Of a stretch of DNA of 64,000 nucleotides, positions 43,153-61,139 are shown in pieces. The position numbers and the translations under genes are program-made. How positions within the stretch are numbered: the first letter of the stretch is position 1; every line of letters starts with the position of its first letter. The notes under the pieces were generated by a model. It had not been told where the DNA came from. It searched no databases and worked only from the letters and a program-made list of their open reading frames with translations. The stretch lies in contig JAAEZZ010000012.1 of the NCBI GenBank assembly GCA_018222605.1, positions 1 through 64,000 of the forward strand, in the 5' to 3' direction. The stretch is from Alphaproteobacteria bacterium. GTDB lineage: Bacteria > Pseudomonadota > Alphaproteobacteria > Caulobacterales > Hyphomonadaceae.

Positions 43153-44087
43153 TGTCTGGTTGGAAAGGTCTTGTCAGTGCAGGCCTGCTGGGGCTTGCGG
43201 CCGCCTGTGTTGTCGCCGGACATGATGCAGACCCCGAAGATTGGCCGGGCATGGCGTCTTTGCAGGCCGTGCAGGGACGATCTGTCTATCATGAATGCGG
43301 CGCGACCATGATCTCACCGGAATGGGCCCTGACCGCGGGCCATTGTGTCGAGGGGATCGAGATCGAGTCCGATGGGCGGGCTGCGCAATATTTCCCTGAC
43401 GCAACCGGCGAGAAGATGCAGCGGTTTGGTCCCGTGGTTCTGGTCGTCGGTCGCGGTGATCTGATGGAGGTTCCTCGCTCTGCGGTCTTTCCCATACAGG
43501 ATATTGTTGTTCACCCTGACTATGTGCCGGGCGCGCCAGAGCAGGGCAATGACTTGGCCCTGCTGCATATCGAAGGGACATGGACCGGGCCGGTGGCTAG
43601 GCTGGATGGCCTCGGCGGGATGGAGGTGGATCTTTCCGGCACGGCCTCTCCGCAAACCTTTGTTGCAGGCTATGGCAAGATGGGGGAAGGCGCCCGGAAC
43701 CAGTCCGGTGTCAGTCGTGGCGGCCGTCATGTCAGCGCGCCTAGCCTGATCCTGCAGGAAGGCATGGTGCCCCCGGTGGATATGGCGCTCTGCAAGCAGC
43801 AGGTAACCGATCTGATCGAAACCTACGGCATGAGTGATTTGCTGGCGGGCGTATCCGTGGACCCGGATACGCAGATCTGTGCGGGCGTTGGGGGCGTGGA
43901 TTCCTGTCAGGGAGACAGCGGTGGGCCGCTGATGTTGAGGACAGGAGACGATACCCCTGTGCAAATTGGTGTGGTCAGTTGGGGGCTTGGGTGCGCGCGA
44001 CCGGACAGCCCTGGTATTTACATGCGCATATCGGCCTATGCGGACTGGATCAGCGCTGTCGCGGATGGGGCTGAAGGGCCGATTTGA
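43149..44087 (+). CDS. Trypsin-like serine protease, lipoprotein
   Basis: A 312-residue S1-family protease. The lipobox is LAAAC near residue 18. The catalytic triad is in LTAGHCVEG (His), NDLALLHI (Asp) and CQGDSGGPLML (Ser), and cysteine pairs are present. It is coupled to the P1 peptidase gene upstream. The end overlaps by 52 bases the recombinase frame on the other strand, and just precedes the tRNA. Likely processed and anchored in the envelope. Confidence 0.93.
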   Translation: MMSGWKGLVSAGLLGLAAACVVAGHDADPEDWPGMASLQAVQGRSVYHECGATMISPEWALTAGHCVEGIEIESDGRAAQYFPDATGEKMQRFGPVVLVVGRGDLMEVPRSAVFPIQDIVVHPDYVPGAPEQGNDLALLHIEGTWTGPVARLDGLGGMEVDLSGTASPQTFVAGYGKMGEGARNQSGVSRGGRHVSAPSLILQEGMVPPVDMALCKQQVTDLIETYGMSDLLAGVSVDPDTQICAGVGGVDSCQGDSGGPLMLRTGDDTPVQIGVVSWGLGCARPDSPGIYMRISAYADWISAVADGAEGPI

Positions 44088-45793
44088 GGGCCATTCCAGC
44101 CCTCGCTGCGAAAGGTGTGAATCTTGCGCGCAAACAGGCTTGCATCCGCTGATCCATGCCTGTATGTGTCCGCCTTCCTTATGGCCGGGCACCGGTAGCT
44201 CAGTTGGATAGAGCACCAGACTACGAATCTGGGGGTCGGGGGTTCGAATCCTCCCCGGTGCGCCATTTCCAAATTTCCACTGCAAATATCCCCTAACATC
44301 TTGAATGGTAACGATATTTCTGGTGTTCGAAAACCGCTTTCGCGGTCATACGCCAGTTGGTCCGCAAACGCGAGTTTCAGCACCGTTTGACGGTGCTCAA
44401 TGCTGCCATTTTCCCAAATTTTCCAAGGGTTTGCCAGAAACGTCATCGAGTGTTCGAACGTCTCCTCATAGGTAGCCAGCGGTGTGCCGCATTTTTCGAT
44501 CCGCTCGCGGATAATCATGCGATCCGTTTCTAGATCACCGATGCGCTTCTCATAGGCTCGGATAACGGATTCGCTGTCAGCTTCCACAAGCCGATCCATA
44601 AGCTGAGCGATCTTGCGCTCGATCTGCGAAAGCTCGGCCTTCACCGACTTGCCTTGTTCTTTCATCGTCTTGGCACGCTGGTCCCACAGGTCACGGAACA
44701 AAGACGAAGCCCACTCGAAAAGCTCAACTGATGGCCTCAGTGCCTTTAGAAGCGCTTCAAACTCTTCTTCAACAAGCTCGCGGCGGATCGACTTGCCCTT
44801 CGCTGCACAGTCCTTCTGGCGGCAGAGATAGTAAGGGTAGTGAGCGGCCTTTCCCTTTGACCAGTTCGCAGTAAGGGGCGTCCCGCAGCAGCCGCATAGG
44901 ACGAAACCGCGAAGCGGAAAATCTTGGCTTATGTCTTTGCGCGCAGGTACGCGGGCGGTGCCGTTCAAACGGTTCTGAATGGTCTTGAATGTTTCAAGAC
45001 TGATAAGCCCCTCGTGCTTTGCAGGACGGAATGAGACATCCCATTTCGGAAGCTCCAAGTAGCCCGCGTAGAGCGGCTGCGTCAGAAAATCATTGACCCG
45101 TTGGTTCGTGACCTCGCCGCGCGGTGTCTTTGGAAACTCGGGTTGCGCTTCGAGAAAGCGTTTCACTTCAGCCTGCGTCGAGAAACGCTCGCAGGCGTAA
45201 CCCTCCAAAGCCTCTCTCAGGATTGATGCGCAAGGCTCGTCGGGAAGCAGAACCTTCCCTTGTCCACTGACACGCTCGTACTTGTATCCAACTGGGGCAT
45301 GGAAGACCCAGTAACCGTTAAGCGCCCGCGCTCGCATGCGGTTGAGAGTTTGTTCGCCGTTCTTCTGGCGCTGGTGCTGCGAAACGCTAGCGAGCAGGTT
45401 TTCAATGAGCTGGCTGTCACTGTCTTCGCCGAATTCGAGTGTCGGGGATTCAAGGATACCGCCCGCCTTGCTGATCGCTGCACGAAGTTCGAGATGGGCT
45501 TGAATGCCACGGGCTAGGCGGCTGATATCGTCGATGATCACAACATGCGGCTGGCGACGGTTCTGACGAAGAAATGACAGCATAGCTTGCATGCCTGGGC
45601 GATTGATCAGGCCGCCGGATGCGTCATCGGTAAACACCTGAACAACGTCATGGCCACGGAACGAGGCATACTCTCGGCACCGTGTTTCCTGAGAGTGCAA
45701 GCCAGTGCCGCGCGTGGTCTGTTTGGTGTCTGACACACGACAATAAATTACGGCTTTGCTGCTTCCATTCTTGCCTTTCATCGAATCCATCAT
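44036..45793 (-). CDS. Large serine recombinase, frame fused through tRNA-Arg
   Basis: A 585-residue frame. The resolvase catalytic domain starts IYCRVSDTKQT with the nucleophile serine near residue 21, then SRLARG. A Recombinase domain and a zinc-ribbon follow (LCGCCGTPLTANW and YYLCRQKDCAAKG), with a coiled coil near residues 375-430. From about residue 510 the frame crosses the tRNA antisense (MAHRGGFEPPTPRFVVWC) and then the chromosome beyond. The native C-terminus was probably replaced when the element joined the tRNA end. It should insert and excise the element. Confidence 0.92.
   Translation of the reverse strand: MMDSMKGKNGSSKAVIYCRVSDTKQTTRGTGLHSQETRCREYASFRGHDVVQVFTDDASGGLINRPGMQAMLSFLRQNRRQPHVVIIDDISRLARGIQAHLELRAAISKAGGILESPTLEFGEDSDSQLIENLLASVSQHQRQKNGEQTLNRMRARALNGYWVFHAPVGYKYERVSGQGKVLLPDEPCASILREALEGYACERFSTQAEVKRFLEAQPEFPKTPRGEVTNQRVNDFLTQPLYAGYLELPKWDVSFRPAKHEGLISLETFKTIQNRLNGTARVPARKDISQDFPLRGFVLCGCCGTPLTANWSKGKAAHYPYYLCRQKDCAAKGKSIRRELVEEEFEALLKALRPSVELFEWASSLFRDLWDQRAKTMKEQGKSVKAELSQIERKIAQLMDRLVEADSESVIRAYEKRIGDLETDRMIIRERIEKCGTPLATYEETFEHSMTFLANPWKIWENGSIEHRQTVLKLAFADQLAYDRESGFRTPEISLPFKMLGDICSGNLEMAHRGGFEPPTPRFVVWCSIQLSYRCPAIRKADTYRHGSADASLFARKIHTFRSEGWNGPQIGPSAPSATALIQSA
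44189..44265 (+). tRNA. tRNA-Arg (ACG anticodon)
   Basis: A 77-base gene. The acceptor stem GCACCGG pairs with CCGGTGC at the 3' end, with CCA encoded. The anticodon loop CTACGAA holds ACG, and GGTTCGAATCC is the T-arm. It is the presumed attachment site of the integrated element to its right, since the recombinase frame reads through it in antisense. Confidence 0.98.
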
Positions 45794-46929: not shown

Positions 46930-48537
46930 CTATGAAGGACAAAAGCCTTCAACGTAGGACCACATGCCGTTCGAATATTGCGGATAGTCCGAGAATTGCT
47001 GCGGCACGCGCTCAAAGATGACCCTCGCACGACGGCGACCCCATCTTGAGGGGATAAGCACGGAGTCGTGGGGAGGATGAAACGGATTGGGCAGAAAGCG
47101 CCCAGCAAAGTCTGACCGTTCGTAGTAGGGATGCTTTTCGGCGAAGATGGGTTTGAGGTTCTTGCCCGAGATGAAGAGCAGTTGCCTGTCCTCTGGCATC
47201 GACAAGATTTCTTCAGGCATCATGAGTGCGCGCGCCTGTTTGGTGCGATGCTCTTCGGCATAGGCGTGATATTTCATGTCCGCGTATGCCGAGAACGGAT
47301 CGCTGCCGTTCATGATGTTCATGGCGGCGTTCATCTTTTGGCGCTTCGCGTCCGCCTGCCTCAGACTGTCGTCATATTCGAGCGTTTCGGTGCCCAGCAT
47401 GGAGGACACCATCTGCGCTGTCTGATAGTCGCGCGCACCGAAGAACTGGCGTAACGCGGATGAACCCATGAAACCCTGAAGGGCGGGTGCGCCGAAGTTA
47501 CGGACGATCTGGCCGACATCCTGAAACAGCGCCCAGACCTGAACGCCAGCTCCGCGACCAAAGGTAAACGCGCGTAGCAGGGCTTCAAAATTTCCGAGCT
47601 GGCCCGCTTCATCGATGATCATCGTGATGCGTGGTGCGGAAGGCGCTCGCGACTTGTAGAGCATCTGCACGGTGAACATTGTGCGCAGGATCGGAGACCA
47701 CAGACCTACGTATTCTATGGGTACGTTGATCGCCCAGCTCGTAGGCTGGCCCGAATTGCAGGTATCGGCCAACGAGGCATCGGCCCCGTCTAGCGCGGCC
47801 TGAAGCATCGGATCATCGAGGAAGTTCAGGTGCGCGTAAATTTCGCCGAGAATGCTTCCGAACTCTTTCTCGCTTTCCTGTTGCTTTGCCAGCATCTCGC
47901 CAGCAGTTCGTCTTACACTGTCCATCGAGGAGCCAAGCATGGCTTCGAGGCAATCTGCCCAGGCATTCGAGTCAGCTTCGATCCAGTTGATGGTGCGATA
48001 GAGCGCGGGGAAGCTCACCTTGCCGTCCCGCTCGACCAGCATCTTGATGATGTTCTCGATCCACTCGCGGGCGCGCAGCTCGAAATATCGACCGTTGGAT
48101 GCGCCGCTTGTCGGGATCAGGCTTTCGGCGATGAACTTGCAGTCCGCATGAAAGTGCGGATCGTTCAGGCGAAGGATATCGAGCGGGTTCATGCGATGCT
48201 GCGGGAGGCCATGCATCCCCGTCGGGTTCCAGCAATAAAGGTAGCTCCTATTGAGAGCGAAGTTCACCATTGTAACGGCGGCGATCTCGCCGCGTGGGTC
48301 AAGGATGAAATTTCGGTTGCCTGCATTCCGTGCCACTGCAAGCGCGAGAAGATCGCGCATTTTGCCTGATCCAGCGCCTGCGACCGTGATAATCGGCGCA
48401 TCGGTTTCAAGGCAGATCGATTTGTTCGCGTTATAGCCGATCTGAAGACCGCAAGCGCTTAGCAGTCCGGCTCGCCTTAGTTCGCTCTCGTCAGACCAGG
48501 ATGCTGATCCGAAACGATACTCTTCGTTGTTCATCAT
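46930..48537 (-). CDS. VirD4/TraG-like type IV coupling protein
   Basis: A 535-residue ATPase. GAGSGKMRDLLALAV near residue 54 is Walker A, and ITMIIDEAGQLGNFEALLRAFTFGRGAGVQVWALFQDVGQI holds Walker B and the DEAG motif. It lacks long N-terminal membrane segments, so it is closer to soluble or anchor-less members. It links the DNA-relaxase complex to a secretion channel. The start follows AAAGGAAAG. Confidence 0.88.
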   Translation of the reverse strand: MMNNEEYRFGSASWSDESELRRAGLLSACGLQIGYNANKSICLETDAPIITVAGAGSGKMRDLLALAVARNAGNRNFILDPRGEIAAVTMVNFALNRSYLYCWNPTGMHGLPQHRMNPLDILRLNDPHFHADCKFIAESLIPTSGASNGRYFELRAREWIENIIKMLVERDGKVSFPALYRTINWIEADSNAWADCLEAMLGSSMDSVRRTAGEMLAKQQESEKEFGSILGEIYAHLNFLDDPMLQAALDGADASLADTCNSGQPTSWAINVPIEYVGLWSPILRTMFTVQMLYKSRAPSAPRITMIIDEAGQLGNFEALLRAFTFGRGAGVQVWALFQDVGQIVRNFGAPALQGFMGSSALRQFFGARDYQTAQMVSSMLGTETLEYDDSLRQADAKRQKMNAAMNIMNGSDPFSAYADMKYHAYAEEHRTKQARALMMPEEILSMPEDRQLLFISGKNLKPIFAEKHPYYERSDFAGRFLPNPFHPPHDSVLIPSRWGRRRARVIFERVPQQFSDYPQYSNGMWSYVEGFCPS

Positions 48538-49866: not shown

Positions 49867-49985
49867 GATCTTCGCTCCTGTCACTTCAGCCCGTGTGGTC
49901 ATCGCTGCGTTCGATTGACGACGGGGCGGGTTCCGCCGAGACTGTCGAAAGGCATATTTCAGACGAACCCTCCGGCGGACGCGGT

Positions 49986-51122
49986 ATGTGTGACGATAGT
50001 GAAACGAATGATCAGAACTTGCAGGGCAATGTGTTGCCGCTGTTTCCAAGAGATGCGTTCAAAAATAGCGGCAAGGAATTTGCCGCAAATCGAAAACCAG
50101 AACCTGATAATACTTTGGAGATGCGCACCGTTAGATATTATCCAGATGCTCAGAAGGAATACGCCCGTAATTTGCTCCGACGCTTGATGTCGGAAAAGGC
50201 GATTTCTCCACAAGCTCTGCGCGATGAAATTATGGAACGCGAAGACGCTGCGTTGATTGAGGCTTCAGGCTGGAAGCCGCAACGGAAGAACGCCGCTCCC
50301 CCACGGGAGGACCGTTTGCTTTCTCGTGCCGATCTGAAAAACTGGCTTGGGGAAAACGCAACGCACCAAATAGGCGATGATAAGTTCTACTTTGTAGATC
50401 GTTTCATCGAGACAAAGATTCCTGTGGAGCAACGTCAGGCGCTCGATGCTTCGATCAGGGATTCGAAGCGTCAATATCAGCTTCAAGCGTTTCGTGACTT
50501 CGCCAGCCATAGCAAAACTACGGATACAGCATGGCAGCGGGCCGAAATATCAAACTCTGTATGGCTTTGCATTCGAGATGATTTTCTCACCAGTAAGGAT
50601 GATCCAACGCTGGGCTACCATTTTCTTCTCTTGATCGAGGAGTTCAAGCAGGGTGTAGCGCCCATCACGCTGGTCTTCGGGAGTAGAGCTTACGCCGATC
50701 AACTTATCGATCATGAGTTTGCCGACGGTGATACTTTGCCTGCGGAATTATTGAAGCGATATGATTGGCAAAGAGACAAGCTCAGCACGTTTGTTACGGG
50801 ATATGCGTTTCAAACGTCCTGCTACATCGAAGACCTCGATGACGAACTCGATGCCATGAACTGGTCCTTCAGCATCGTTGCTCGTCGAGATCATCGTACT
50901 ATTAAGGAGTCCCTACCACTCGTTTTCGAGCAGCCGATAAAGGGAATTTATCTCATACTTTGGTCTCAGCCTTTTCGCAAAGGGGAGACGCCTCGCATGT
51001 CTAGTGGTGAAATTGGTATGTTCAACCATCATCAAATCCAAAACGAAGAGCACTCGATAATACGCACAGATATCGACCCCTCGGAGATCGCAAAGTTTGT
51101 AAGGGGATACAGTTTTGGGTAA
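49986..51122 (+). CDS. Hypothetical protein of unknown family, partner of ankyrin gene
   Basis: A 378-residue soluble protein. I recognise no domain. Features seen: a low-complexity N-terminus, a helical segment (YPDAQKEYARNLLRRLMSEKAISPQALRDEIMERED) and a beta-rich second half (HFLLLIEEFKQGVAPITLVFGSRAYADQLIDHEF). The ATG at 49986 is favoured; a GTG 93 bases upstream extends the frame. Its end overlaps the ankyrin gene by 8 bases, so the two are made together, as in toxin-immunity or regulator pairs. Function unknown. Confidence 0.6.
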   Translation: MCDDSETNDQNLQGNVLPLFPRDAFKNSGKEFAANRKPEPDNTLEMRTVRYYPDAQKEYARNLLRRLMSEKAISPQALRDEIMEREDAALIEASGWKPQRKNAAPPREDRLLSRADLKNWLGENATHQIGDDKFYFVDRFIETKIPVEQRQALDASIRDSKRQYQLQAFRDFASHSKTTDTAWQRAEISNSVWLCIRDDFLTSKDDPTLGYHFLLLIEEFKQGVAPITLVFGSRAYADQLIDHEFADGDTLPAELLKRYDWQRDKLSTFVTGYAFQTSCYIEDLDDELDAMNWSFSIVARRDHRTIKESLPLVFEQPIKGIYLILWSQPFRKGETPRMSSGEIGMFNHHQIQNEEHSIIRTDIDPSEIAKFVRGYSFG

Positions 51123-51468
51123 AATAAAAGATGTAATGCCGAACGATAAATCGGGCACTGAGCATGTGCCGCCAGATATATTTCGTGCTGCTGAAAACAA
51201 TGATCTAGAGGAGTTGGCGTTTGCGCTGCAAAGCGGACAACGATTAGACCATCAGCGAGAGCCAGATAAGATGACGCCCGTGCACGTGGCGGCGGCGTTG
51301 GGCCACGCTGACTTCGTTCGGGTATCCATGGAGATACATCCCCAAGTCGCATGGATACGAGATGAGATGGACCGACGACCCATCGAACACGCGAATGCCC
51401 GCAATGATCAGGTTATCGCAGGGTATCTGAAGGAGGCGATGTTTCAGCCCCCAGAGAACGCCCTCTGA
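51115..51468 (+). CDS. Ankyrin-repeat protein
   Basis: A 117-residue protein with ankyrin repeats, seen as IFRAAENNDLEELAFALQSGQRLDHQREPDKMTPVHVAAALGHADFVRVSMEIHPQVAWIRDEMDRRPIEHANARNDQVIAGYL. The likely start is TTG at 51115, after AAGGGG, overlapping the preceding gene by 8 bases; an ATG at 51136 is possible. Such small ankyrin proteins often bind or inhibit a partner. Confidence 0.75.
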   Translation: MGKIKDVMPNDKSGTEHVPPDIFRAAENNDLEELAFALQSGQRLDHQREPDKMTPVHVAAALGHADFVRVSMEIHPQVAWIRDEMDRRPIEHANARNDQVIAGYLKEAMFQPPENAL

Positions 51469-51555
51469 GCAACAGTCCCAAGCACGCCACAAATCACTCC
51501 TTCCGCATCGACCACATCGAAACACCTTGTTTCCCAATTTTATCAATAAGTCCGA

Positions 51556-51590
51556 CCCGCAAGATGTGCGGTGTACTACACCGCAATCTT
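51556..51590 (-). other. Candidate oriT: palindrome plus nick-like site
   Basis: AAGAT-G-TGCGGTGTA-C-TACACCGCA-ATCTT makes a near-perfect 14-bp palindrome at 51561-51590. On the minus strand it is followed at once by CATCTTG|CGGG, which fits the P-type relaxase nick consensus (YATCCTG|Y-like). An inverted repeat next to a nick site is the usual oriT layout. CCGCA and TGCGG can also pair in an alternative fold. No relaxase is in view, so this could equally be an operator. Confidence 0.45.
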
Positions 51591-51595
51591 GGCAA

Positions 51596-52066
51596 GGGAG
51601 CCCGCTGCGCGCTCCCGTTGCATCCCTCCGGCCCTGGCTCTTCGAAGGGCATTGAGCCCATCCAGAGCCATCAGAACGTTTCGCCGTTCAATCACTCGCG
51701 GAAGACTTCGCTCTCCCTGCACCCATCGATCAAAGGGGCTATCGCGCCCCTTGTGAAATCCACTCGTCAGGGTAATAGCCCCCGACACCTGCCAATCAGG
51801 GAAGCGTTCCTGCTCCCACCGATACCCCCATGACCATTTCATGGAGACCAACCCTGCGCGGTTTGGATGCCGATCAGGTCTGTCGCGACCCGATACCTAC
51901 GACCAAGAGCCTACCCGTGCTCTTTGGATACATGGGCCAACCCTGCGCAGGTTGGATATGCGCCAGCATTTCGTCGCTGGAATACGATCAAGAGGACGCC
52001 CTTGGATACGGGTGCGGTCTGTGGAGGAATCCTCGAAATACCGTTGGCACATTGTGTATCCAACGG
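51596..52066. repeat. Array of unlike short hairpins
   Basis: At least a dozen small inverted repeats follow each other every 25-35 bases: among them GGGAGC/GCTCCC, GAACG/CGTTC, AAGGGGC/GCCCCTT, CCATGA/TCATGG, GGTC/GACC, AAGAGC/GCTCTT, CCAACC/GGTTGG, CCAGC/GCTGG, GAGGA/TCCTC and CCGTTGG/CCAACGG. Stem sequences differ, but loops repeat (TTTCGC, TATCGC, TGTCGC, CTGCGC twice) and several right arms are followed by GATAC or similar. Different stems with similar loops suggest selection on shape. No protein-coding frame here is convincing. Confidence 0.6.
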
Positions 52067-52072
52067 CTACAC
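52054..52072. promoter_or_regulatory. Candidate ribbon-helix-helix operator
   Basis: GTGTA at 52054 and TACAC at 52068 are inverted copies 8 bases before the RHH start codon, and overlap the last hairpin of the array. The position would suit autorepression. Confidence 0.4.
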
Positions 52073-52080
52073 TCGGTCCG

Positions 52081-52251
52081 ATGAAGGACGTTGGCCTCCG
52101 AATACGCATCGACCGCGATTTGCGGGAGAAATTCCTCCGCGCCTGCAAAGCCGAGGATCGCCCTGCCGCGCAGGTGATACGCGAGTTTATGCGTGCGTAT
52201 GTGGAGGACAAGGATCGCGACAAAACCAAGAAACGAATAAATGATTCTTGA
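52081..52251 (+). CDS. Ribbon-helix-helix DNA-binding protein
   Basis: A 56-residue protein with the RHH pattern: strand GLRIRIDRDL then EKFLRACKAEDRPAAQVIREFMRAYVED, ending in a lysine-rich tail. The ATG at 52081 has no clear ribosome binding site, so it may be leaderless. The stop overlaps the helicase start by 11 bases. By position it is a regulator of the downstream module. Confidence 0.85.
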   Translation: MKDVGLRIRIDRDLREKFLRACKAEDRPAAQVIREFMRAYVEDKDRDKTKKRINDS

Positions 52252-55200
52252 TAACAAAAAACATGGAAAAGTCGGCGATGAGCTGCGCAAACACCTACAA
52301 GCAGGTGTGACCCTATCCGCTATATCGAGGGAATTCTCGATCTATGGCTTTGACGCGCTGAAATCCGAACTAAAAGCTATCGATCACGCGCGACTAATGC
52401 TTTGTCCGCTTCAGGCGAACGAAAGCAAGGAGCTAGCTTTCGAAAGCCTCGCGGGCGATGATTCCGAGGTCCGACATCGAAATCAGCTTAGGCAGAGACA
52501 AATCGCGAAGGAATGCCAACGCTGGATCAAAGACAAAACCTCGGTAAGGGTTGTGAACGATCCTAAATCCCTAAGCCAAAGCCTTCTGCTTGCAACCGAT
52601 AACAATGGCCATGCCGTAGGAATACAGGGAAGCTCCACGTTCACTAGCACGGGCCTCGGCTATTCCGAGAGCAAGCGCCTTCACATGAATATGTGCGCGC
52701 GTGACGCGGAAAATACCGCAGCGATGCTCCAATGGTTCGATGCTCTTTGGAACGATGATCACGCGGCTTCCGATGCGAAGGCAGCCTTCCTAAAGCGCCT
52801 TGAGCTTCTATCTTCTGACCAGTCCCCAGAGTTCATTTACTTCCTCACGTTGTATCATCTTTTTCGGGACGTTCTGGATGAGATTGATGAGGAAAGCATC
52901 ATCCGCTCCAAGACAGGTTTCAAGGATACGATTGTCTGGAACAAGCTATACAAATTCCAACGCGATGGTGTGCTTGGCGCTATCGACAAATTGGAAAAGT
53001 ACAACGGTTGCATAATTGCTGATAGCGTAGGGCTCGGTAAGACATTCGAGGCACTTGCAGTAATAAAATACTACGAACTTAGGAATGATCGCGTCCTCGT
53101 CTTGTGTCCTAAGAAACTACGCGACAACTGGACGGTCTATACGATCAACGACAAGAGAAACCTGCTCTCCTCGGATCGTTTCAACTACGACGTATTGAAC
53201 CATACCGACTTGACCCGAACACAGGGGCGGTCGGGAGAAATCAATCTCGAAACATTAAATTGGGGCAACTATGACCTCATAGTCATAGATGAATCTCATA
53301 ACTTTCGGAACGCGAGTTCCGCGAAAGAAGGTCTCACCCGATACTCCCGACTGATGGACCAGATCATTCGGTCAGGTGTAAAGACCAAGGTGTTGATGCT
53401 TTCGGCAACACCTGTAAACAACCGGATGAATGACCTGAAGAACCAGGTAGCTTTCATCACTGAGGGTGTGGACAGTGCTTTCGCTGACAACGGCATCAAC
53501 AGCGTCGAAGAGACGCTGCGCAAGTCTCAGACCCGTTTCAATCAATGGCTGAAGCTGGGCGACAGCGAGCGCAACGTCGAAGCGCTCCTAGACAGCATGA
53601 ACTTCGACTACTTCAAGCTGCTTGACCTTCTCACCATCGCACGTTCGCGCAAACACATCGAAAAATATTACGACCTCGGGGAGATCGGATCGTTTCCCGA
53701 GAGATTGCAGCCCCTGAATATCAAAGCCGACATTGATACCGACGACCAGTTTCCACCGTTGAAGGATATCAACAAGACGATCAGAAAACTTAATCTGAGC
53801 GCTTACTCTCCACTTAAGTATGTGCGTGGAGATCGGCGGGAAGAGTACAGTCGGAAATACGATATTCAGGTTAAGGACGGGTCATCTGTGTTCCGGCAGG
53901 TGGACCGTGAACAGAGCCTTATCCACCTGATGCGGGTCAACCTGCTCAAGCGAATGGAAAGCTCGATCAGTTCCTTCGCGCAAACGCTTGGAAAGCTTCT
54001 TGGGGAAGTAGAGACGCTTCTCGAAAAGCTTGATTCCCATTCATCCGATGACGTCGAAGAGCTGAGCATTGAGGACATCGAAACCGATGCGCCCGAATTC
54101 GATGACTATCTGATCGGTCGCAAGGTCAAAGTTTTAATAAAGGATATGGACGAGCATCGATGGCGGCAGGATCTTGAGGACGACCGCGCCAAGCTCGAAG
54201 AGCTTCTGGATGAGGCCCGCAAGATCGAAGCCAGCCGCGATGCAAAGCTCTTGTCGCTCAAGCAGTTGATCTCCGAAAAGTGCCAGAATCCTATCAACGA
54301 GGGAAACCGCAAGATCATTGTCTTCACGGCGTTCTCTGACACGGCTGGGTATCTCTACGATAACATCGCGCAGTGGGCGCGCGACGAGCTTGGCGTCTAT
54401 GCGGCACAGATCACGGGCAGCGGCACAAACAAAACAACCCTTCCAGGCCAAAGCAATAACTTCGATAGCTTGCTTGCATCCTTTTCGCCGAGGTCGAAGG
54501 AACGCGGCAAGATCGACGCGAAGGCAACAGACGAGATCGACCTTCTGATCGCCACGGACTGTATATCCGAAGGTCAGAATCTTCAGGACTGCGACTATCT
54601 GGTGAACTACGACATTCACTGGAACCCTGTGCGCATCATCCAACGCTTCGGACGTATCGACCGCTTGGGCTCAACCAACAAAGCGATCCAGTTGGTGAAC
54701 TTCTGGCCCAACATGGAGCTGGACGAGTACATCAATCTTGAAGCGCGTGTCAGCGGACGGATGGTGCTCCTCGATATCTCCGCGACAGGTGAAGAGAATG
54801 TCATCGAGCAAGATGCGTCTGGGGCGATGAATGATCTGGAGTACCGCCGAAAGCAGCTTCACCAGCTTCAGAACGCAGTGGTTGACCTGGAAGATATGTC
54901 AGGTGGCGTCTCCATCACCGACCTGACCTTGAACGACTTCCGCATGGACTTGTCCGAGTATATGAAAGAGCACTTGGACAAACTGGAAGACTCGCCCATT
55001 GGTCTCTACGCGGCGGCGACCCTTGATGAGGGGCTGAAGGTCGAAGGACTTTCGTCGGGCGTTGCATTCTGTCTCAAAAATGTCGGCAAGCAGGTAAATC
55101 GCGAGGACGGCTACGCGCTCGCCCCTTACTACCTGACCTATGTTTCCGATGACGGCGAAGTCGATCTCAACTTCGTCCAGTCCAAGCGGATAATGGATGT

Positions 55201-55459
55201 GCTCAAGAAGCACGGGCATGGAAAGCCCGTACCGGACAACGATGCTGTCGCGCGGATGGACGCCCTTACCAAGAAGGGCAAGGATATGAGCCACTATCGC
55301 AATCTGTTGGAGATCGCGGTCAGCGGCATCATCGGCAAGTCGGAAGAGAAAGGCGTCGAAAGCCTCTTCTCACGGGGCGGCACCAACCTGACGAAGGATA
55401 GCTTCCAGGGCATGGAGGACTTCGAGGTCATCAGCTACATGGTGGTGAACGCGTCATGA
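52241..55459 (+). CDS. SNF2-like helicase of the restriction module
   Basis: A 1072-residue helicase. Walker A DSVGLGKTFEALAVI lies near residue 260, the DESHNFRN motif near 349, SATPVNNRMND near 387, and motif VI RIIQRFGRIDRLG near 800 in the second RecA domain. A coiled-coil segment sits around residues 560-690. The long N-terminal 250 residues are of unknown type. It heads helicase-DUF4391-Mod-Res, with a four-base overlap to the DUF4391 gene. It may be a remodelling or translocation partner. Confidence 0.9.
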   Translation: MILDNKKHGKVGDELRKHLQAGVTLSAISREFSIYGFDALKSELKAIDHARLMLCPLQANESKELAFESLAGDDSEVRHRNQLRQRQIAKECQRWIKDKTSVRVVNDPKSLSQSLLLATDNNGHAVGIQGSSTFTSTGLGYSESKRLHMNMCARDAENTAAMLQWFDALWNDDHAASDAKAAFLKRLELLSSDQSPEFIYFLTLYHLFRDVLDEIDEESIIRSKTGFKDTIVWNKLYKFQRDGVLGAIDKLEKYNGCIIADSVGLGKTFEALAVIKYYELRNDRVLVLCPKKLRDNWTVYTINDKRNLLSSDRFNYDVLNHTDLTRTQGRSGEINLETLNWGNYDLIVIDESHNFRNASSAKEGLTRYSRLMDQIIRSGVKTKVLMLSATPVNNRMNDLKNQVAFITEGVDSAFADNGINSVEETLRKSQTRFNQWLKLGDSERNVEALLDSMNFDYFKLLDLLTIARSRKHIEKYYDLGEIGSFPERLQPLNIKADIDTDDQFPPLKDINKTIRKLNLSAYSPLKYVRGDRREEYSRKYDIQVKDGSSVFRQVDREQSLIHLMRVNLLKRMESSISSFAQTLGKLLGEVETLLEKLDSHSSDDVEELSIEDIETDAPEFDDYLIGRKVKVLIKDMDEHRWRQDLEDDRAKLEELLDEARKIEASRDAKLLSLKQLISEKCQNPINEGNRKIIVFTAFSDTAGYLYDNIAQWARDELGVYAAQITGSGTNKTTLPGQSNNFDSLLASFSPRSKERGKIDAKATDEIDLLIATDCISEGQNLQDCDYLVNYDIHWNPVRIIQRFGRIDRLGSTNKAIQLVNFWPNMELDEYINLEARVSGRMVLLDISATGEENVIEQDASGAMNDLEYRRKQLHQLQNAVVDLEDMSGGVSITDLTLNDFRMDLSEYMKEHLDKLEDSPIGLYAAATLDEGLKVEGLSSGVAFCLKNVGKQVNREDGYALAPYYLTYVSDDGEVDLNFVQSKRIMDVLKKHGHGKPVPDNDAVARMDALTKKGKDMSHYRNLLEIAVSGIIGKSEEKGVESLFSRGGTNLTKDSFQGMEDFEVISYMVVNAS

Positions 55460-56229
55460 GCGATATTCGCAGCATCGAAGACTTCTACGAAAACCTGGGC
55501 CTTCCTGAAGCGTGCGCTCTTGGCAAGCGGTTGTTCAAGAAACAGTTCTACGAACACGGCCAGCTCGGCGCGGCGGACAAGAAGGCGTTTGTTGAAGACA
55601 TCGAGGGGATCGATTGGGCCTATACGCTCAAGCCGTCCACGATAAACATCCCGAAGCTGGAAGATGACACGCACGAGTATCTGGAGATCGCAGTACTTCA
55701 GGTGATGCTCTCCGCCATTGAGCGGCATACGCGGATCGCGACTGTCATCCAGAAGGCCATACCCTATCCGCTTCTGATCGTTTTCTCGCGAGACAATGGT
55801 CTCGCGATCAGTGCCGCCGAAAAGCGGATCAACCGAGCCGACGCAAACAAGATCGTGGTCGAAAGCATCTACGATACGGGGTGGATCGATATGTCCGCCG
55901 CCAGCGCCGAACAACAAGCCTTCCTGTCTGACTTCCGCGTATCGAACTTCAGCTTCGGCAACCTCTACGCGTTCTATCAGGACGCCGTGGGGCGGATCAT
56001 TGCACTCAACTGCGCAAGGCATTCGGGTCGCTATGAGCCGCTATCGGAGAAAACGAAGCCAAAGGCCGACCGACTGGAAGCGCTGCGGCAGATGGACAAA
56101 CTTCATCAGGAGCGGACCGAAGTCCGCAATAAACTGAAGAAAGAAAAAAACCTTGGGACGCAGGTCAGCCTGAATACCAGGATCAAGCAACTGAGTGATC
56201 GCATCGAGGCGATCCGCAACGACATTTGA
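55456..56229 (+). CDS. DUF4391 domain protein
   Basis: A 257-residue protein with the DUF4391 pattern: FYENLGLPEACALGKRLFKKQFYEHGQLGAADKKAFVEDIEGIDWAYTLKPSTINI in the first half and the later DYP-like repeat of helical segments ending in a coiled coil (DKLHQERTEVRNKLKKEKN). Found in restriction and defence islands with SNF2-like helicases. It overlaps the helicase stop by four bases, and Mod starts 11 bases after it. Confidence 0.85.
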   Translation: MSDIRSIEDFYENLGLPEACALGKRLFKKQFYEHGQLGAADKKAFVEDIEGIDWAYTLKPSTINIPKLEDDTHEYLEIAVLQVMLSAIERHTRIATVIQKAIPYPLLIVFSRDNGLAISAAEKRINRADANKIVVESIYDTGWIDMSAASAEQQAFLSDFRVSNFSFGNLYAFYQDAVGRIIALNCARHSGRYEPLSEKTKPKADRLEALRQMDKLHQERTEVRNKLKKEKNLGTQVSLNTRIKQLSDRIEAIRNDI

Positions 56230-56239
56230 GGAAAGCATA

Positions 56240-58135
56240 ATGGACGCATTGAAAAAGGAAGACGGGGAAAGCCTGAGCATCGTGGACGAAAATATTGAAG
56301 CATTGAAGGCCATTCTGCCTGACGCGTTCGCGGAAGATGGTATCGATTTTGAAGTTCTGCGCCAATTGCTGGGCGATGAGGTTGCAGAGGGCGAGGAGAA
56401 ATACGGCCTTACGTGGCATGGGAAGAAGAAAGCCCGTCAAATTGCACTCACCCCTTCTACTGGCACTTTGCGCCCGTGCCCTGAAGAAAGCGAGGGTTGG
56501 GCGACGACGCAGAACCTTTTCATTGAAGGCGACAACCTCGAAGTCTTGAAGCTCTTGCAGAAAAGTTACGCTGGCAAGGTCAAAATGATCTACATCGACC
56601 CGCCATACAATACAGGGGGGGAATTCATCTATCCAGACCGTTATCAAGAGAACCTTGATACATACCTCAAGTACACAGGCCAAAAAGACGGAGAGGGCTT
56701 TAAAACATCGTCAAATACCGAAAGCTCGGGACGCTTTCACACAAATTGGCTTAACATGATGCTTCCACGCCTGAAGCTTGCCAAGAACCTCCTTCAGCAG
56801 GATGGACTTATTTTCGTGTCCATCGACGACAATGAAGTTGAAAACCTAAAATTTCTAATGAATGAAATCTTCGGCGAAGAAAATTTCGTTGATTCAATTG
56901 TCTGGAAGAAACGATATGGCGGCGGCGCTAAAGAAAAATACTTAGTTACAATGCATGAATATATTCTTGTTTACTGCAAGGATATTGAATTCCTTCCAGA
57001 TATATTTGTTCCGCTAAGCGATGAGCAAATAGATCGATATTACAAAAGTACCGATGATAACTACGAGAAAAGAGGGCCTTACCGAACACACCCTCTAGAA
57101 GCAATGAAAAGCTTTGATGTTCGCGAAAACCTCAAGTTTCCCATACCTGCACCCGACGGATCAGAGGTATGGCCAAAGCGTCAGTGGCGTTGGGGTCCAG
57201 AAAGGGCAAAGCAGGCGCTCGCGAATGGTGAGATAGAGTTTAGCCAAAAACAAGATGGGTCATGGGTTCTTTCGTCAAAGCAGTACCTCAAGGACGAAAA
57301 TGGTGAAATAAGAAAGACAAAGGCATTTTCGGTAATTGATGACGTTTATTCTCAACATGGAACAAACGAAATTTACAAGCTTTTTGGGAATGCGAAGATT
57401 TTTGACTTCCCAAAGCCTGTAGGACTAATGAAGCAGATACTTGACATCGGAACAGATCGAGAAACCGGTGACGTAGTTTTGGACTTCTTCGCTGGCTCAG
57501 CTGCGATGGCTCACGCTGTCATGGAGGCGAACACTGAAGATGACGGCAATCGCCGTTTTGTCATGGTGCAGCTGCCAGAACACATTGAAGAAAAGGCGGA
57601 TGCCTTCAAGGCTGGCTACAAAACTATTGCTGATATCGGAATGGACAGATTGCGGAAGGCAGCATCTGCAATCAAGGAGCAAACACCGAAGAGTAGCAGC
57701 GATCTCGGTTTCAAGGTATTCAAGCTCGACAGTAGTAACATTCGCGCTTGGAACCCTGATGCGTCTGATCTTGAACAGACATTGCTTGATCATGCGGAGC
57801 ATCTTGTGGAAGGGCGCAGCGAGCAGGACGTGCTCTATGAGCTTCTGCTCAAGCGCGGCGTCGATCTGACGGTCCCGATTGAAGAAAAGGAGATCGCTGG
57901 CAAGAAGGTTTACTCCATAGGCTACGGTGTTTTGTTCGCTTGTCTCGACGAAACAATCGACAAGGCGGAGATCGAAGCCCTCGGTCAAGGGATTACGGAC
58001 TGGCACAAAGAGTTGGAGCCTGCGGCGGGCACGCAAGTCGTCTTCCGTGACAGCGCCTTTGCTGACGATATCGCCAAAACGAACATGACCGCCATTCTGG
58101 AACAGAACGGCATCGCTCATGTGCGCAGCCTGTAA
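56240..58135 (+). CDS. mod: Type III restriction-modification methyltransferase (Mod)
   Basis: A 631-residue beta-class adenine methyltransferase. DPPYNTGG at residues 120-127 is motif IV, and LDFFAGSAAMAHAV near residue 415 is motif I, the order expected of type III Mod. The region between (56,860-57,480) is the target-recognition domain and is clearly AT-richer than either side. The ATG at 56240 follows GAGGAAAG. It sets the recognition site and pairs with Res downstream. Confidence 0.93.
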   Translation: MDALKKEDGESLSIVDENIEALKAILPDAFAEDGIDFEVLRQLLGDEVAEGEEKYGLTWHGKKKARQIALTPSTGTLRPCPEESEGWATTQNLFIEGDNLEVLKLLQKSYAGKVKMIYIDPPYNTGGEFIYPDRYQENLDTYLKYTGQKDGEGFKTSSNTESSGRFHTNWLNMMLPRLKLAKNLLQQDGLIFVSIDDNEVENLKFLMNEIFGEENFVDSIVWKKRYGGGAKEKYLVTMHEYILVYCKDIEFLPDIFVPLSDEQIDRYYKSTDDNYEKRGPYRTHPLEAMKSFDVRENLKFPIPAPDGSEVWPKRQWRWGPERAKQALANGEIEFSQKQDGSWVLSSKQYLKDENGEIRKTKAFSVIDDVYSQHGTNEIYKLFGNAKIFDFPKPVGLMKQILDIGTDRETGDVVLDFFAGSAAMAHAVMEANTEDDGNRRFVMVQLPEHIEEKADAFKAGYKTIADIGMDRLRKAASAIKEQTPKSSSDLGFKVFKLDSSNIRAWNPDASDLEQTLLDHAEHLVEGRSEQDVLYELLLKRGVDLTVPIEEKEIAGKKVYSIGYGVLFACLDETIDKAEIEALGQGITDWHKELEPAAGTQVVFRDSAFADDIAKTNMTAILEQNGIAHVRSL

Positions 58136-58151
58136 GATCGGGGGCTGAGTT

Positions 58152-61139
58152 ATGAAACTGCACTTCGAAGACAATCTCGACTATCAGCAAGCCGCCATTG
58201 AATCCGTGGCAGACCTGTTCAAAGGTCAGGAGATCAACCGCACCGAATTCACCGTCACCTATCGTTCAGGTGATGCCGCTCAGGGCTCTTTCGGCGTGAC
58301 CGAAAGCGAGCTTGGCATCGGCAACAAGCTCGAACTTCTTGATGATGAAATCCTTGAGAACATGCGGGACATACAAATCCGCAACGGGCTCTATCCGTCC
58401 GATTCCCTTACCAGCGGCGACTTCACGGTCGAGATGGAGACGGGCACGGGTAAGACCTACGTTTATCTCCGCACGATCTTCGAGCTGAACAAGCGCTATG
58501 GCTTCACGAAGTTTGTGATCGTCGTGCCTTCTGTCGCGATCAAGGAAGGCACATACAAGACTCTCCAGATTACGCGCGAACACTTCGAAAATCTCTACCC
58601 CATGGCGAAGGGCTATGAGTATTTCCAATACGACTCTTCGAAGCCAGGAACAGTTCGCAACTTTGCCACCAGCCCCAACATCCAGATCATGGTCGTGACG
58701 GTCGGCGCGATCAACAAGAAGGACGTGAACAACCTCTACAAAGAGAGCGAAAAAACAGGCGGCGAGAAGCCTATTGATCTCGTGCGCGCGACCAATCCGA
58801 TCATCATCGTGGACGAACCGCAAAGCGTCGATGGCGGGATGACTGGGCGCGGTAAGGAAGCGCTCGAAGCCATGAATCCGCTATGCACGCTGCGCTATTC
58901 AGCAACTCACGTGGACAAGCATCACATGGTCTATCGCCTTGATGCCGTAGATGCCTATGAGCGCGAGCTGGTGAAGCAGATTGAAGTCGCTGCGCTGGAA
59001 GTCGAAGGCGGGCACAACAAGCCCTACGTCAAACTTATATCGACCGAGAACAAGCGCGGTTCCATCACGGCCAAGATCGAGGCTGACATCGTTAGCGGCG
59101 GTAAGGTCAAACGTCAGATTTTCACGGTTGAAGACGGTGATGATCTTCAGCAAGAGACCGGACGCGACCTCTACGAAAATTTCCGCATTGGTACGATTAC
59201 GGTCGGCAACGACAACCAGTCCATGGAACTCAGCATGCCTGGAGGCGAGGCTTTGATGCGCCCAGGCGATGAAGTCGGCGGGGTCAACCAAGATGACCTA
59301 AAGCGCCTCATGATCCGCCGCACGATCAAAGAACATCTCGACAAGGAAATGAGGTTCGCCGCGCAGAAGCGCGAAGTTAAGGTGCTCAGCCTCTTCTTCA
59401 TCGATAGCGTTGAGTTTTATCGCCAGTATGACGAGGACGGGAACATTGTGAAGGGCAAGTATGCCCTTATGTTCGAGGAAGAGTATCGCAAGCTCGCCAA
59501 ACATCCCGATTACCAGACGCTCTTCGAGAACGTCGATCTCGATACAGAAGCCGATGAGGTCCACAACGGCTACTTCTCCATAGATAAGAAAGGCGGTTGG
59601 ACTGAAACGGCAGAGAATAACCAGACCAATCGCGACAATGCCGAGCGGGCGTATAATCTGATCATGAAGGACAAGGAGAAGCTGCTTAGCTTTGATTCCA
59701 AGCTGAAGTTCATCTTCTCCCACTCAGCCCTCAAGGAAGGTTGGGACAATCCAAACGTCTTCCAGATTTGTGCTCTCCGCGATATCGGGACCGAACGCGA
59801 ACGTCGCCAGACCCTTGGTCGGGGCCTCCGTTTGTGCGTCAATCAGGAAGGCCAACGACTTCGCGGCTTCGACGTGAACACGCTCACGGTGATTGCCACC
59901 GAGAGCTATGAGCAATTTGCTGAGAACCTTCAGAAGGAAATCGAGAAGGACACGGGCATTCGCTTCGGCGTGGTGGAGAAGCACCAGTTCGCAAATCTGG
60001 CCGTTACGGAAGACGACGGGAGCACAAGCCCGCTTGGGGTGGAGAAGTCTGAAGAAGTTTGGAACTACCTCAAGGACAACGGTTTCGTCGACGCACGCGG
60101 CAAAGTGCAGGACTCGCTCCGCACGGCGTTGAAAGAAGATACACTCGAATTGCCCGATGACTTTTCCGAACAAGAAAGCGGCATCAAAGACATCCTCAAG
60201 AAACTCGCAGGTAAGCTCGACATCAAGAATGCCGACGAGCGAATAACGATCCGTACACGCGAAGCCATACTTGAGAGCGAGGAATTCAAAGCGCTGTGGG
60301 AGCGGATCAAACACAAGACGACATACCGCGTCGAGTTCGACAACGATAAGTTGATTGTTGACTGCGCCAGAGCCATCACCGACGGCCCGAGCATTACGAA
60401 GACGCGCGCGCAGTTTCGTGTGGCTGATATCGCCATTGGCAAAGGCGGCGTGGAGGCTAACGAGACTTCGGCTTCGGGTTTCACATCCATTAGCGAAAGC
60501 GATATCGAGCTGCCCGATCTCCTGACTGATCTACAGGACAAAACCCAGCTCACCCGCAAGAGCATCGTGAGGATTCTTACTGACAGCCGACGGCTTCCTG
60601 ACTTCAAAAAGAACCCACAAGAGTTCATTGATCTCGCTACAGAAGCGATCAACCGCACGAAGCGCCTCGCCCTCGTCGATGGCATCAAATATCAACGGAT
60701 CGGAGATGATCATTACTACGCTCAGGAACTCTTCCAGCAAGAAGAACTGACGGGATATCTCAAGAACACACTTGAGACCAAAAAGTCGGTCTACGAGCAT
60801 GTAATCTACGACTCGGCGGGCATCGAGAAGAGGTTTGCCGAAGAGCTTGAAACCAATGAAGCCGTCAAAGTTTACGCTAAGCTTCCAGGTTGGTTCAAAG
60901 TGCCGACACCACTTGGCACCTACAACCCGGACTGGGCGGTCGTGGTCGATGATGACGGTCAGGAAAAGCTATACTTTGTAGTCGAAACCAAAGGTAGCGG
61001 TTGGTGGGATGATTTGCGCCATAAGGAAGGTGCAAAGATCGCTTGTGGAAAAGAGCACTTTGCGGTTCTCGCCGACGGTGAAAACCCCGCAAAATACATT
61101 CATGCGACTTCAGTAGATGAAGTTCTTAAGCGAGCATAA
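58152..61139 (+). CDS. res: Type III restriction subunit (Res)
   Basis: A 995-residue subunit. METGTGKTYVYLRTI near residue 96 is Walker A; VDEPQSVDGG near 220 is the DEAD-like motif of type III Res; RRQTLGRGLRLCV near 555 is motif VI. The C-terminal endonuclease has PDW and ETKGS (residues about 927 and 944), a PD-ExK pattern. It follows Mod by 16 bases. No disruption is seen, so the pair looks functional. Confidence 0.93.
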   Translation: MKLHFEDNLDYQQAAIESVADLFKGQEINRTEFTVTYRSGDAAQGSFGVTESELGIGNKLELLDDEILENMRDIQIRNGLYPSDSLTSGDFTVEMETGTGKTYVYLRTIFELNKRYGFTKFVIVVPSVAIKEGTYKTLQITREHFENLYPMAKGYEYFQYDSSKPGTVRNFATSPNIQIMVVTVGAINKKDVNNLYKESEKTGGEKPIDLVRATNPIIIVDEPQSVDGGMTGRGKEALEAMNPLCTLRYSATHVDKHHMVYRLDAVDAYERELVKQIEVAALEVEGGHNKPYVKLISTENKRGSITAKIEADIVSGGKVKRQIFTVEDGDDLQQETGRDLYENFRIGTITVGNDNQSMELSMPGGEALMRPGDEVGGVNQDDLKRLMIRRTIKEHLDKEMRFAAQKREVKVLSLFFIDSVEFYRQYDEDGNIVKGKYALMFEEEYRKLAKHPDYQTLFENVDLDTEADEVHNGYFSIDKKGGWTETAENNQTNRDNAERAYNLIMKDKEKLLSFDSKLKFIFSHSALKEGWDNPNVFQICALRDIGTERERRQTLGRGLRLCVNQEGQRLRGFDVNTLTVIATESYEQFAENLQKEIEKDTGIRFGVVEKHQFANLAVTEDDGSTSPLGVEKSEEVWNYLKDNGFVDARGKVQDSLRTALKEDTLELPDDFSEQESGIKDILKKLAGKLDIKNADERITIRTREAILESEEFKALWERIKHKTTYRVEFDNDKLIVDCARAITDGPSITKTRAQFRVADIAIGKGGVEANETSASGFTSISESDIELPDLLTDLQDKTQLTRKSIVRILTDSRRLPDFKKNPQEFIDLATEAINRTKRLALVDGIKYQRIGDDHYYAQELFQQEELTGYLKNTLETKKSVYEHVIYDSAGIEKRFAEELETNEAVKVYAKLPGWFKVPTPLGTYNPDWAVVVDDDGQEKLYFVVETKGSGWWDDLRHKEGAKIACGKEHFAVLADGENPAKYIHATSVDEVLKRA

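Follow-up and report, generated by a model that had tools for sequence, protein, structure and literature searches.

Rows of hairpins whose order varies from one occurrence to the next are known from BIME/REP mosaics and integron attC sites, and the array described here behaves likewise; unlike either, it is anchored at a single oriT-like palindrome and has no cassettes between its units. Folded DNA close to a nick site is also a known kind of element. The sso of rolling-circle plasmids and the sso1 of ICEBs1 are non-coding, orientation-dependent folded regions near the nick, and in most rolling-circle plasmids the sso is upstream of the dso, according to the sections of PMC4595007 dealing with the sso. 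The array is likened to them by layout, not by sequence, and whereas ICEBs1 sso1 is of a defined type with three stem-loops (same sections of PMC4595007), the array comprises many short, interchangeable hairpins of putative function. The Frpo/ssi elements of F-type leading regions, which the relevant part of PMC11541004 describes as folded single-strand promoters, are similarly made of folded transferred-strand DNA near oriT; unlike them, the stems of the array studied here showed no -35/-10 arrangement in a sigma-70 scan, and the array probably lies on the trailing side. Finally, the MOBP oriTs of RP4 and of tfs4 of Helicobacter pylori, as treated in the pertinent part of PMC3772185, share with our putative origin a VirD2-type relaxase and an inverted repeat immediately 5' of an ATC(C/T)TG nick motif, from which our locus departs in having ATCTTG in place of ATCCTG and a covarying hairpin array of 400-500 bases joined to the repeat. 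A covarying modular mosaic fixed to a VirD2-type oriT and occurring in several phyla is, as far as our searches go, undescribed, no such array having emerged from Rfam or from searches of an open-access paper library in which most subscription journals are absent.

The array lies in a window of 64,000 nucleotides (the whole stretch of DNA analysed, beginning at position 1 of its contig), in which the initial annotation had described a row of unlike hairpins with related loops. The reality of this row is confirmed by an excess of stems and by folding energies that beat shuffled sequence on both strands, as well as by the existence of relatives. The minimum free energy of 51540-52080 corresponds to a z of -5.06 on the plus and -5.32 on the minus strand, none of 100 shuffles being as good. 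Perfect stems of at least 6 bp number 5 in 51596-52066 against a shuffled mean of 0.75 (sd 0.86, maximum 4; 300 shuffles), and 6 in 51540-52080 against 0.77 (sd 0.83, maximum 4). At a threshold of 5 bp, the counts are 7 against 2.66 (sd 1.45) in the narrower interval, a value within the range of the 300 shuffles, whose maximum was 8, and 9 against 3.03 (sd 1.46, maximum 8) in the wider one. The loops named at the outset (TTTCGC, TATCGC, TGTCGC and, twice, CTGCGC) are present in the sequence, as are GATAC-like bases 3' of several right arms. Some of the stems contain a mismatch or bulge.

The row begins with the palindrome GCAAGATGTGCGGTGTACTACACCGCAATCTTG (51559-51591), a putative oriT core whose arms covary and which is present in most of the relatives listed. 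Hairpin 1 (51592-51621), with the stem GCAAGGGAGC..GCTCCCGTTGC and the loop CCGCTGCGC, has a stem that covaries in relatives and furnished the search signature. It is followed by hairpin 2 (51635-51670; TGGCTC..GAGCCA with an inner GGGC..GCCC), which corresponds to aligned helices 2 and 3, with 95.3% and 93.1% of cells paired, and by hairpin 3 (51674-51689; GAACG-TTTCGC-CGTTC), corresponding to aligned helix 1, with 98.3% of cells paired and three pairs changed on both sides. Further units are GCGGAAGACTTCGCTCTCCCTGC (51698-51720), GTCAGGGTAATAGCCCCCGAC (51766-51786), ATCAGGGAAGCGTTCCTGCTCCCACCGAT (51795-51823) and ATCAGGTCTGTCGCGACCCGAT (51873-51894), recognized from the sequence and from relatives, which contain units similar to the first of these. 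AAGGGGC-TATCGC-GCCCCTT (51733-51752) and CCAAGAGCCTACCCGTGCTCTTTGG (51903-51927) were identified by stem count together with units in relatives (L031, L032, L033 and L035 for the latter), and CCATGACCATTTCATGG (51828-51844) by stem count and a unit boundary in the alignments of relatives. The unit CCAACCCTGCGCGGTTTGG (51848-51866) is supported by the repeat D1 and by relatives, CCAACC-CTGCGCA-GGTTGG (51937-51955) by repeat search and stem count, and CCAGC-ATTTCGTC-GCTGG (51963-51980) by stem count. The weak last unit, CAAGAGGACGCCCTTG (51989-52004), was recognized from the sequence, the similarity of the array to that of L031 stopping at 52009. No strand is assigned to any of these features, nor to the dyad CCGTTGG..CCAACGG (52041-52066), which overlaps a promoter-like site (52044-52073) just before the start codon of a ribbon-helix-helix (RHH) gene and is read as the control region of that gene, probably a promoter/operator outside the array. 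The limits first given to the array, 51596-52066, capture its layout, but the unit starts at the palindrome, at 51559 rather than 51596, and its last dyad probably does not belong to it. Open reading frames traverse the array stretch on both strands, and the arrays of relatives are also overlapped by such frames (one cluster of them, at 12 loci, has differing ends). Coding sequence was considered as an explanation of the array and is unlikely, the covarying stems and the swapping of units ruling against it.

In a DNA search, fragments of the array turned up in 8 of the 42 genomes from the genus (its own included) and in nine plasmid records, often in a different order. A signature derived from hairpin 1 (GGCAAGG, stem, GCTGCGC, stem, GTTGCATCC) matched exactly in at least 118 stretches of genome_contigs, of which at least two (L109 and L139) look like chance, and in three of viral_contigs (L156, L157 and L158); the last three are labelled viral but may really be misfiled mobilizable islands. 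Among whole genomes, 9 of the 105 from the family and 7 of the 385 from the class (the source genome counted) contain the pattern, and a reversed control pattern had no match in the family, class and 49-genome searches. The matches listed come mostly from Alphaproteobacteria, with some from Nitrosomonas, other Beta- and Gammaproteobacteria, Nitrospirales and Planctomycetota (names as in the records, many of which are metagenome-assembled). L055 carries two arrays on opposite strands, less than 8 kb apart and oriented away from each other, and a genome of 2.4 Mb (G085, the source of L121) has five hairpin-1 matches, two of them about 530 bases apart and facing outward. The chance-like L109 and L139 were left out of the partner-shuffle, wobble-context, folding-z, breakpoint, hairpin-count, loop and alignment-eligibility sets and kept in the palindrome listing and in the neighbourhood, stem-profile, first wobble and left-arm-pattern counts; the near-duplicates L074 and L089 were dropped from the folding-z and alignment-eligibility sets, and L089 also from the breakpoint alignments.

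The claim that stems covary around conserved loops, made from a single sequence, is demonstrated by an alignment of 47 heads (palindrome to hairpin 3), consisting of the window and 46 relatives thinned by hand from 72 eligible ones, which had to match the GCAAG and hairpin-3 loop patterns and in which the outer letters of hairpin 1 were fixed by the search pattern. In this alignment, 94.9% of 1847 cells pair, as opposed to 84.7% (sd 0.4) after shuffling; changes on both sides occur in 21 of 40 pairs (13.2 shuffled) and in 191 cells (61.1 shuffled), and the covariation score is 0.287 (0.111 shuffled, sd 0.006). None of 500 shuffles matched any of the five covariation measures, and control structures slid along the same heads gave 32-45% pairing. 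The same emerges from a partner-shuffle test of distinct arm pairs, which yielded 0.914 vs 0.716 for hairpin 1 (14 arm pairs), 0.738 vs 0.441 for hairpin 3 (48) and 0.706 vs 0.371 for the palindrome (36). The stems of hairpin 1 vary among relatives as sets, e.g., GGGAGC/GCTCCC, GGAAAAC/GTTTTCC and GGGGCAC/GTGCCCC. The fold is thus conserved over sequence, as in an sso, for the palindrome and hairpins 1-3, the part in which covariation was scored; the later units rest on the excess of stems.

Inspection of the relatives shows the same layout in many elements and strongly bears out the proposed adjacency to an oriT-like palindrome, which lies to the left of hairpin 1 in the majority of the 133 matches listed. 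Its left-arm pattern is present in 111 of the 126 listed matches with enough upstream sequence and absent from 15, several of which have variant palindromes. A spacer separates the palindrome from hairpin 1 in L061, L063, L093 and L098. By eye, the palindrome loops of seven loci (L055, L095, L101, L102, L115, L118 and L135) seem to contain extra sequence, possibly an inner hairpin, with the outer arms still paired. Across 132 distinct arrays (80-129 per bin), the number of stems of 6 bp or more in each 200 nt is 2.64 at the array start, 1.9-2.6 from -100 to +100, 1.60 at +200, 1.13 at +300 and 0.63 at +400, and falls to a background of 0.32-0.56 beyond +500 and upstream of -200, from which it follows that arrays extend to one side of the palindrome, at which they are anchored. 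For stems of 5 bp or longer, the median count in the 450-nt zone of 120 arrays is 7, compared to 3 in the control; by a strict chain count, 42 of the 120 give short chains (two hairpins or fewer), which suggests that some arrays are short or eroded or were missed. As a whole, the array is a mosaic built of discrete units. When near-identical arrays (93-99%) of different elements are compared by eye, the similarity on the right side ends mostly at the linkers between hairpins, and L031, L032 and L035 have a common array that stops at different units. Left-side breakpoints were likewise placed by eye in 36 alignments: 12 fall 0-4 bases from GCAAG, 9 are at a motif located 10-14 bases outward, 6 lie beyond that and 9 are within the array or palindrome. 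In our reading, units are gained, lost and exchanged as modules.

The gene neighbourhood in and beyond the window is that of a probable integrative element. A tRNA-Arg(acg) gene (44189-44265, plus strand; tRNA prediction) is the probable integration site, tentatively supported by an 11-bp copy of its 3' end, and is entered by the frame of a large serine recombinase (44036-45793, minus; PF00239, PF13408, PF07508). To the right of these follow a VirD4/TraG-type coupling protein (46930-48537, minus; PF02534, PF12696, PF10412), the palindrome and array, the RHH protein of 56 aa (52081-52251, plus; RHH_9, below the Pfam cut-off), the restriction module, SMC-like and OLD-like genes, an ArdC-type anti-restriction gene (ArdcN + MPTase-PolyVal; contig 67256-68248, plus; L159:7257-8249) and a VirD2-type relaxase (contig 69975-71474, minus). 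A search of PDB sequences with the relaxase gave nothing useful, with one match at E 0.81. The cargo (52241-61139, plus) comprises an SNF2-like helicase (best PADLOC model C3a139), a DUF4391 protein, a type III methyltransferase and a type III restriction subunit, i.e., a restriction module plus two additional genes in one run, and the ArdC-type gene and the type III module probably belong to one element. Restriction or other defence genes also occur in the visible flanks of several array-bearing islands. Left of the palindrome, a 409-aa ORF without a Pfam match (the 49893-51122 / 51115-51468 pair) overlaps an ankyrin-repeat gene, and both face the palindrome. The 11-bp copy of the tRNA-Arg 3' end, at contig position 71898, tentatively marks the right end of the element, an uncertain placement since two further partial copies, of 15 and 14 nt, occur at 84346 and 86121. 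A second serine recombinase (contig 71895-73490) sits beside this possible att copy and, with the partial tRNA copies (84346-86134), possibly represents a tandem second element. Of the features by which an integrative mobilizable element is recognized, a recombinase of its own is present in the serine recombinase beside tRNA-Arg; relaxase and coupling-protein genes were also found, the oriT is putative, and direct repeats at the two ends are tentative.

The same genes recur around the relatives. Within the limited flanks of 133 neighbourhoods, whose clusters were identified by Pfam on one or two example members each, a serine-recombinase cluster is found in 40 (40 of its 45 ORFs upstream on the minus strand), a coupling-protein cluster in 25 (upstream on the minus strand in 21) and one of relaxases in 10. 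In 49 genomes chosen from those behind the at least 118 stretches, with long contigs favoured, 38 of 61 arrays have a relaxase gene (PF03432) within 40 kb on the same contig, and 23 have no PF03432 match within that distance on their contig. Of these 38 relaxases, 35 are downstream, on the array's side, and in the opposite orientation (toward the array), at 1.4-26.5 kb; three differ. On the plasmid pcai42B, the array is flanked by coupling-protein/J-domain genes on one side and mobC/relaxase on the other, and the relaxase is in the array's own orientation.

The MOBP nick consensus given in PMC3772185 is (C/T)ATCCTG(C/T). On the minus strand, the outer edge of the palindrome reads CACATCTTGC, one letter off this consensus and accompanied by an inverted repeat, and this edge is among the best-conserved parts of the palindrome in relatives (the patterns used required GCAAG and part of TGTG). 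The putative nick, placed by motif, would accordingly fall on the minus strand between CACATCTTG and C, i.e., between plus positions 51560 and 51559. The 12 of 36 alignments of near-identical arrays whose similarity ends 0-4 bases left of GCAAG also favour this side. Counted against this placement, the left breakpoints near GCAAG may reflect the mere edge of a conserved element and, if the nick were on the plus strand, at CTTG/GCAAGG (slash marking the cut), the array would enter the recipient ahead of the rest.

The composition of the hairpins provides indications as to which strand folds, and in what form. In the 47 aligned heads, G.T outnumbers A.C on the minus strand by 36 to 12. In the first 450 nt, A.C outnumbers G.T on the plus strand by 140 to 42, and by 79 to 42 when the 61 A.C from two recurrent contexts are set aside, with shuffled arrays at 245 to 174 (about 1.4 to 1). 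This wobble asymmetry, at first 147 A.C to 44 G.T, was considered as proof of strand and demoted to a lean, as nearly half of it comes from the two contexts. Among 547 distinct hairpins, cGNAg, a stable triloop of the DNA type, forms the loop of 30 on the minus and 2 on the plus strand, compared with 28 and 36 of 1120 controls. The hairpins are related by descent, so that the strand and loop counts treat non-independent copies. Mean folding z values for 64 randomly drawn arrays are -2.74 (plus) and -3.09 (minus) with RNA energies and -2.70 (plus) and -2.83 (minus) with DNA energies, values that scarcely separate the strands. Taken together, these weak signs, none of them decisive, make us lean to the minus strand, as DNA, as the folded molecule, with fair confidence.

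Of the three uses initially offered for the array, that of a single-strand region of a transfer origin fits best on account of its location, its one-sidedness, the linkage to relaxase and coupling protein, and the lack of a fixed far end; a non-coding RNA is retained as a rival, and the covariation of the stems, which do not keep one sequence, speaks against a multi-site operator. Many elements carry the palindrome with its one-sided covarying hairpin mosaic of 400-500 bases, and a serine recombinase, a VirD4-type coupling protein and a VirD2-type relaxase are often encoded close by. We prefer, at evenly balanced confidence, to regard the array as a single-strand-acting region that flanks the oriT in a family of integrative mobilizable elements, with second-strand initiation, in the manner of an sso/ssi, as its favoured function. 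The relaxase would cut the minus strand at CTTG/C, the outer edge of the palindrome, and the cut strand would be transferred, the array forming its last (3') part, just 5' of the nick. We infer the further step from folded transferred-strand DNA to second-strand initiation, and its details are the least certain: once single-stranded, in the recipient or as the displaced strand in the donor, the array might fold into successive hairpins and so leave part of the strand uncovered by SSB, on which host enzymes might set a primer from which the complementary strand could be made, much as at the sso/ssi of rolling-circle replicons. A place on the 3' part of the transferred strand would be the usual position of a rolling-circle sso, which counts for this reading; conversely, the relevant passage of PMC4595007 argues that an sso upstream of oriT is risky for integrating elements, which counts against a trailing-side location. 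The 23 of 61 arrays with no PF03432 match in range also weigh against our reading.

The same folds could alternatively belong to RNA, with the array transcribed, most likely leftward, as a multi-hairpin RNA such as a CsrB-like protein sponge or a regulator of transfer genes, which we regard as unlikely, albeit with an appreciable chance of being right. The covariation is exactly what a structured RNA would display, but it fits single-stranded DNA equally; the minus strand folds slightly better with RNA energies (difference 0.36, s.e. 0.16, 64 arrays), G-U-type changes lean to minus, and a weak hint for the plus strand comes from UNCG loops (5 of 547 hairpins vs 4 of 1120 controls). GNRA tetraloops, however, show no enrichment (4 on minus and 2 on plus among 547 vs 7 and 14 of 1120 controls), and wobble pairs make up about 2% of cells (36 of 1847), which is low for RNA. 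Rfam returned for the window's stretch one sub-threshold match taken as chance (sR16, 18.5 bits vs 70) and for 12 relatives four matches, all to tRNA and none to the array. Further, no terminator-like site was found in the window's array stretch, and the far end is variable and depends on the cargo, with no conserved promoter position noticed in relatives, which is awkward for an RNA with a single promoter. Transcription could also enter differently, were the plus strand the one transferred: the array would then be the first part to arrive, and its hairpins would allow transcription or priming by the host RNA polymerase ahead of second-strand synthesis, as at Frpo/ssi leading-region promoters. 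The array directly adjoins the presumed oriT, an ArdC-type anti-restriction gene is probably in the same element, folded single-strand promoters of this kind are described in the cited part of PMC11541004, and the discussion of sso placement in PMC4595007 prefers the leading side for integrating elements. We nonetheless consider such promoters improbable here, as they need -35 and -10 elements within a folded stem, for both of which stems of 5-8 bp seem too short, and the sigma-70 consensus scan of 51480-52120 found one promoter-like site, the RHH-proximal one at the far end. Moreover, the nick motif and the conserved sequence favour the opposite edge of the palindrome, and the cargo genes of the window run away from the array on the plus strand, so that their template would not be that strand.

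A position next to the palindrome and the association with relaxase and coupling-protein genes would equally suit a scaffold for the relaxosome or coupling apparatus, whose hairpins, as cruciforms or in single strands, bind MobC, RHH or relaxase-type proteins and aid processing or recognition of the transferred strand, with no priming; conservation of linkers and loops agrees with this. Yet arrays differ widely in how many units they contain and in what order, a variability unusual in a fixed nucleoprotein complex, and no specific binding protein was identified, making this quite improbable in our estimation. The least credible proposal, to which we give very little weight, is a recombination platform, somewhat like integron attC sites, with the units as exchange points for swapping cargo beside oriT. 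Different sequence does follow near-identical arrays, and similarity often stops at unit linkers or the palindrome edge, but plain homologous recombination between common linkers could explain exchange within the array, and no unit-specific recombinase among the neighbourhood clusters and no shared core crossover site were noticed.

To our knowledge, little is known, beyond a few models, of how integrative elements convert incoming single-stranded DNA to double strand. In 2015, the account of second-strand conversion in PMC4595007 held that virtually nothing was known of it for any ICE. We tentatively entertain the possibility, which we hold at somewhat less than even confidence, that the array represents a new class of transfer-origin appendage, in which interchangeable covarying ssDNA hairpins, on one side of a VirD2-type oriT in integrative elements of several phyla, form a modular code that would govern the fate of the transferred strand and evolve by cassette-like swaps of units. 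A recognisable folded region beside the probable oriT of more than 100 islands offers a direct handle on their establishment, and the array signature may flag the transfer origins of many islands that are as yet unannotated.
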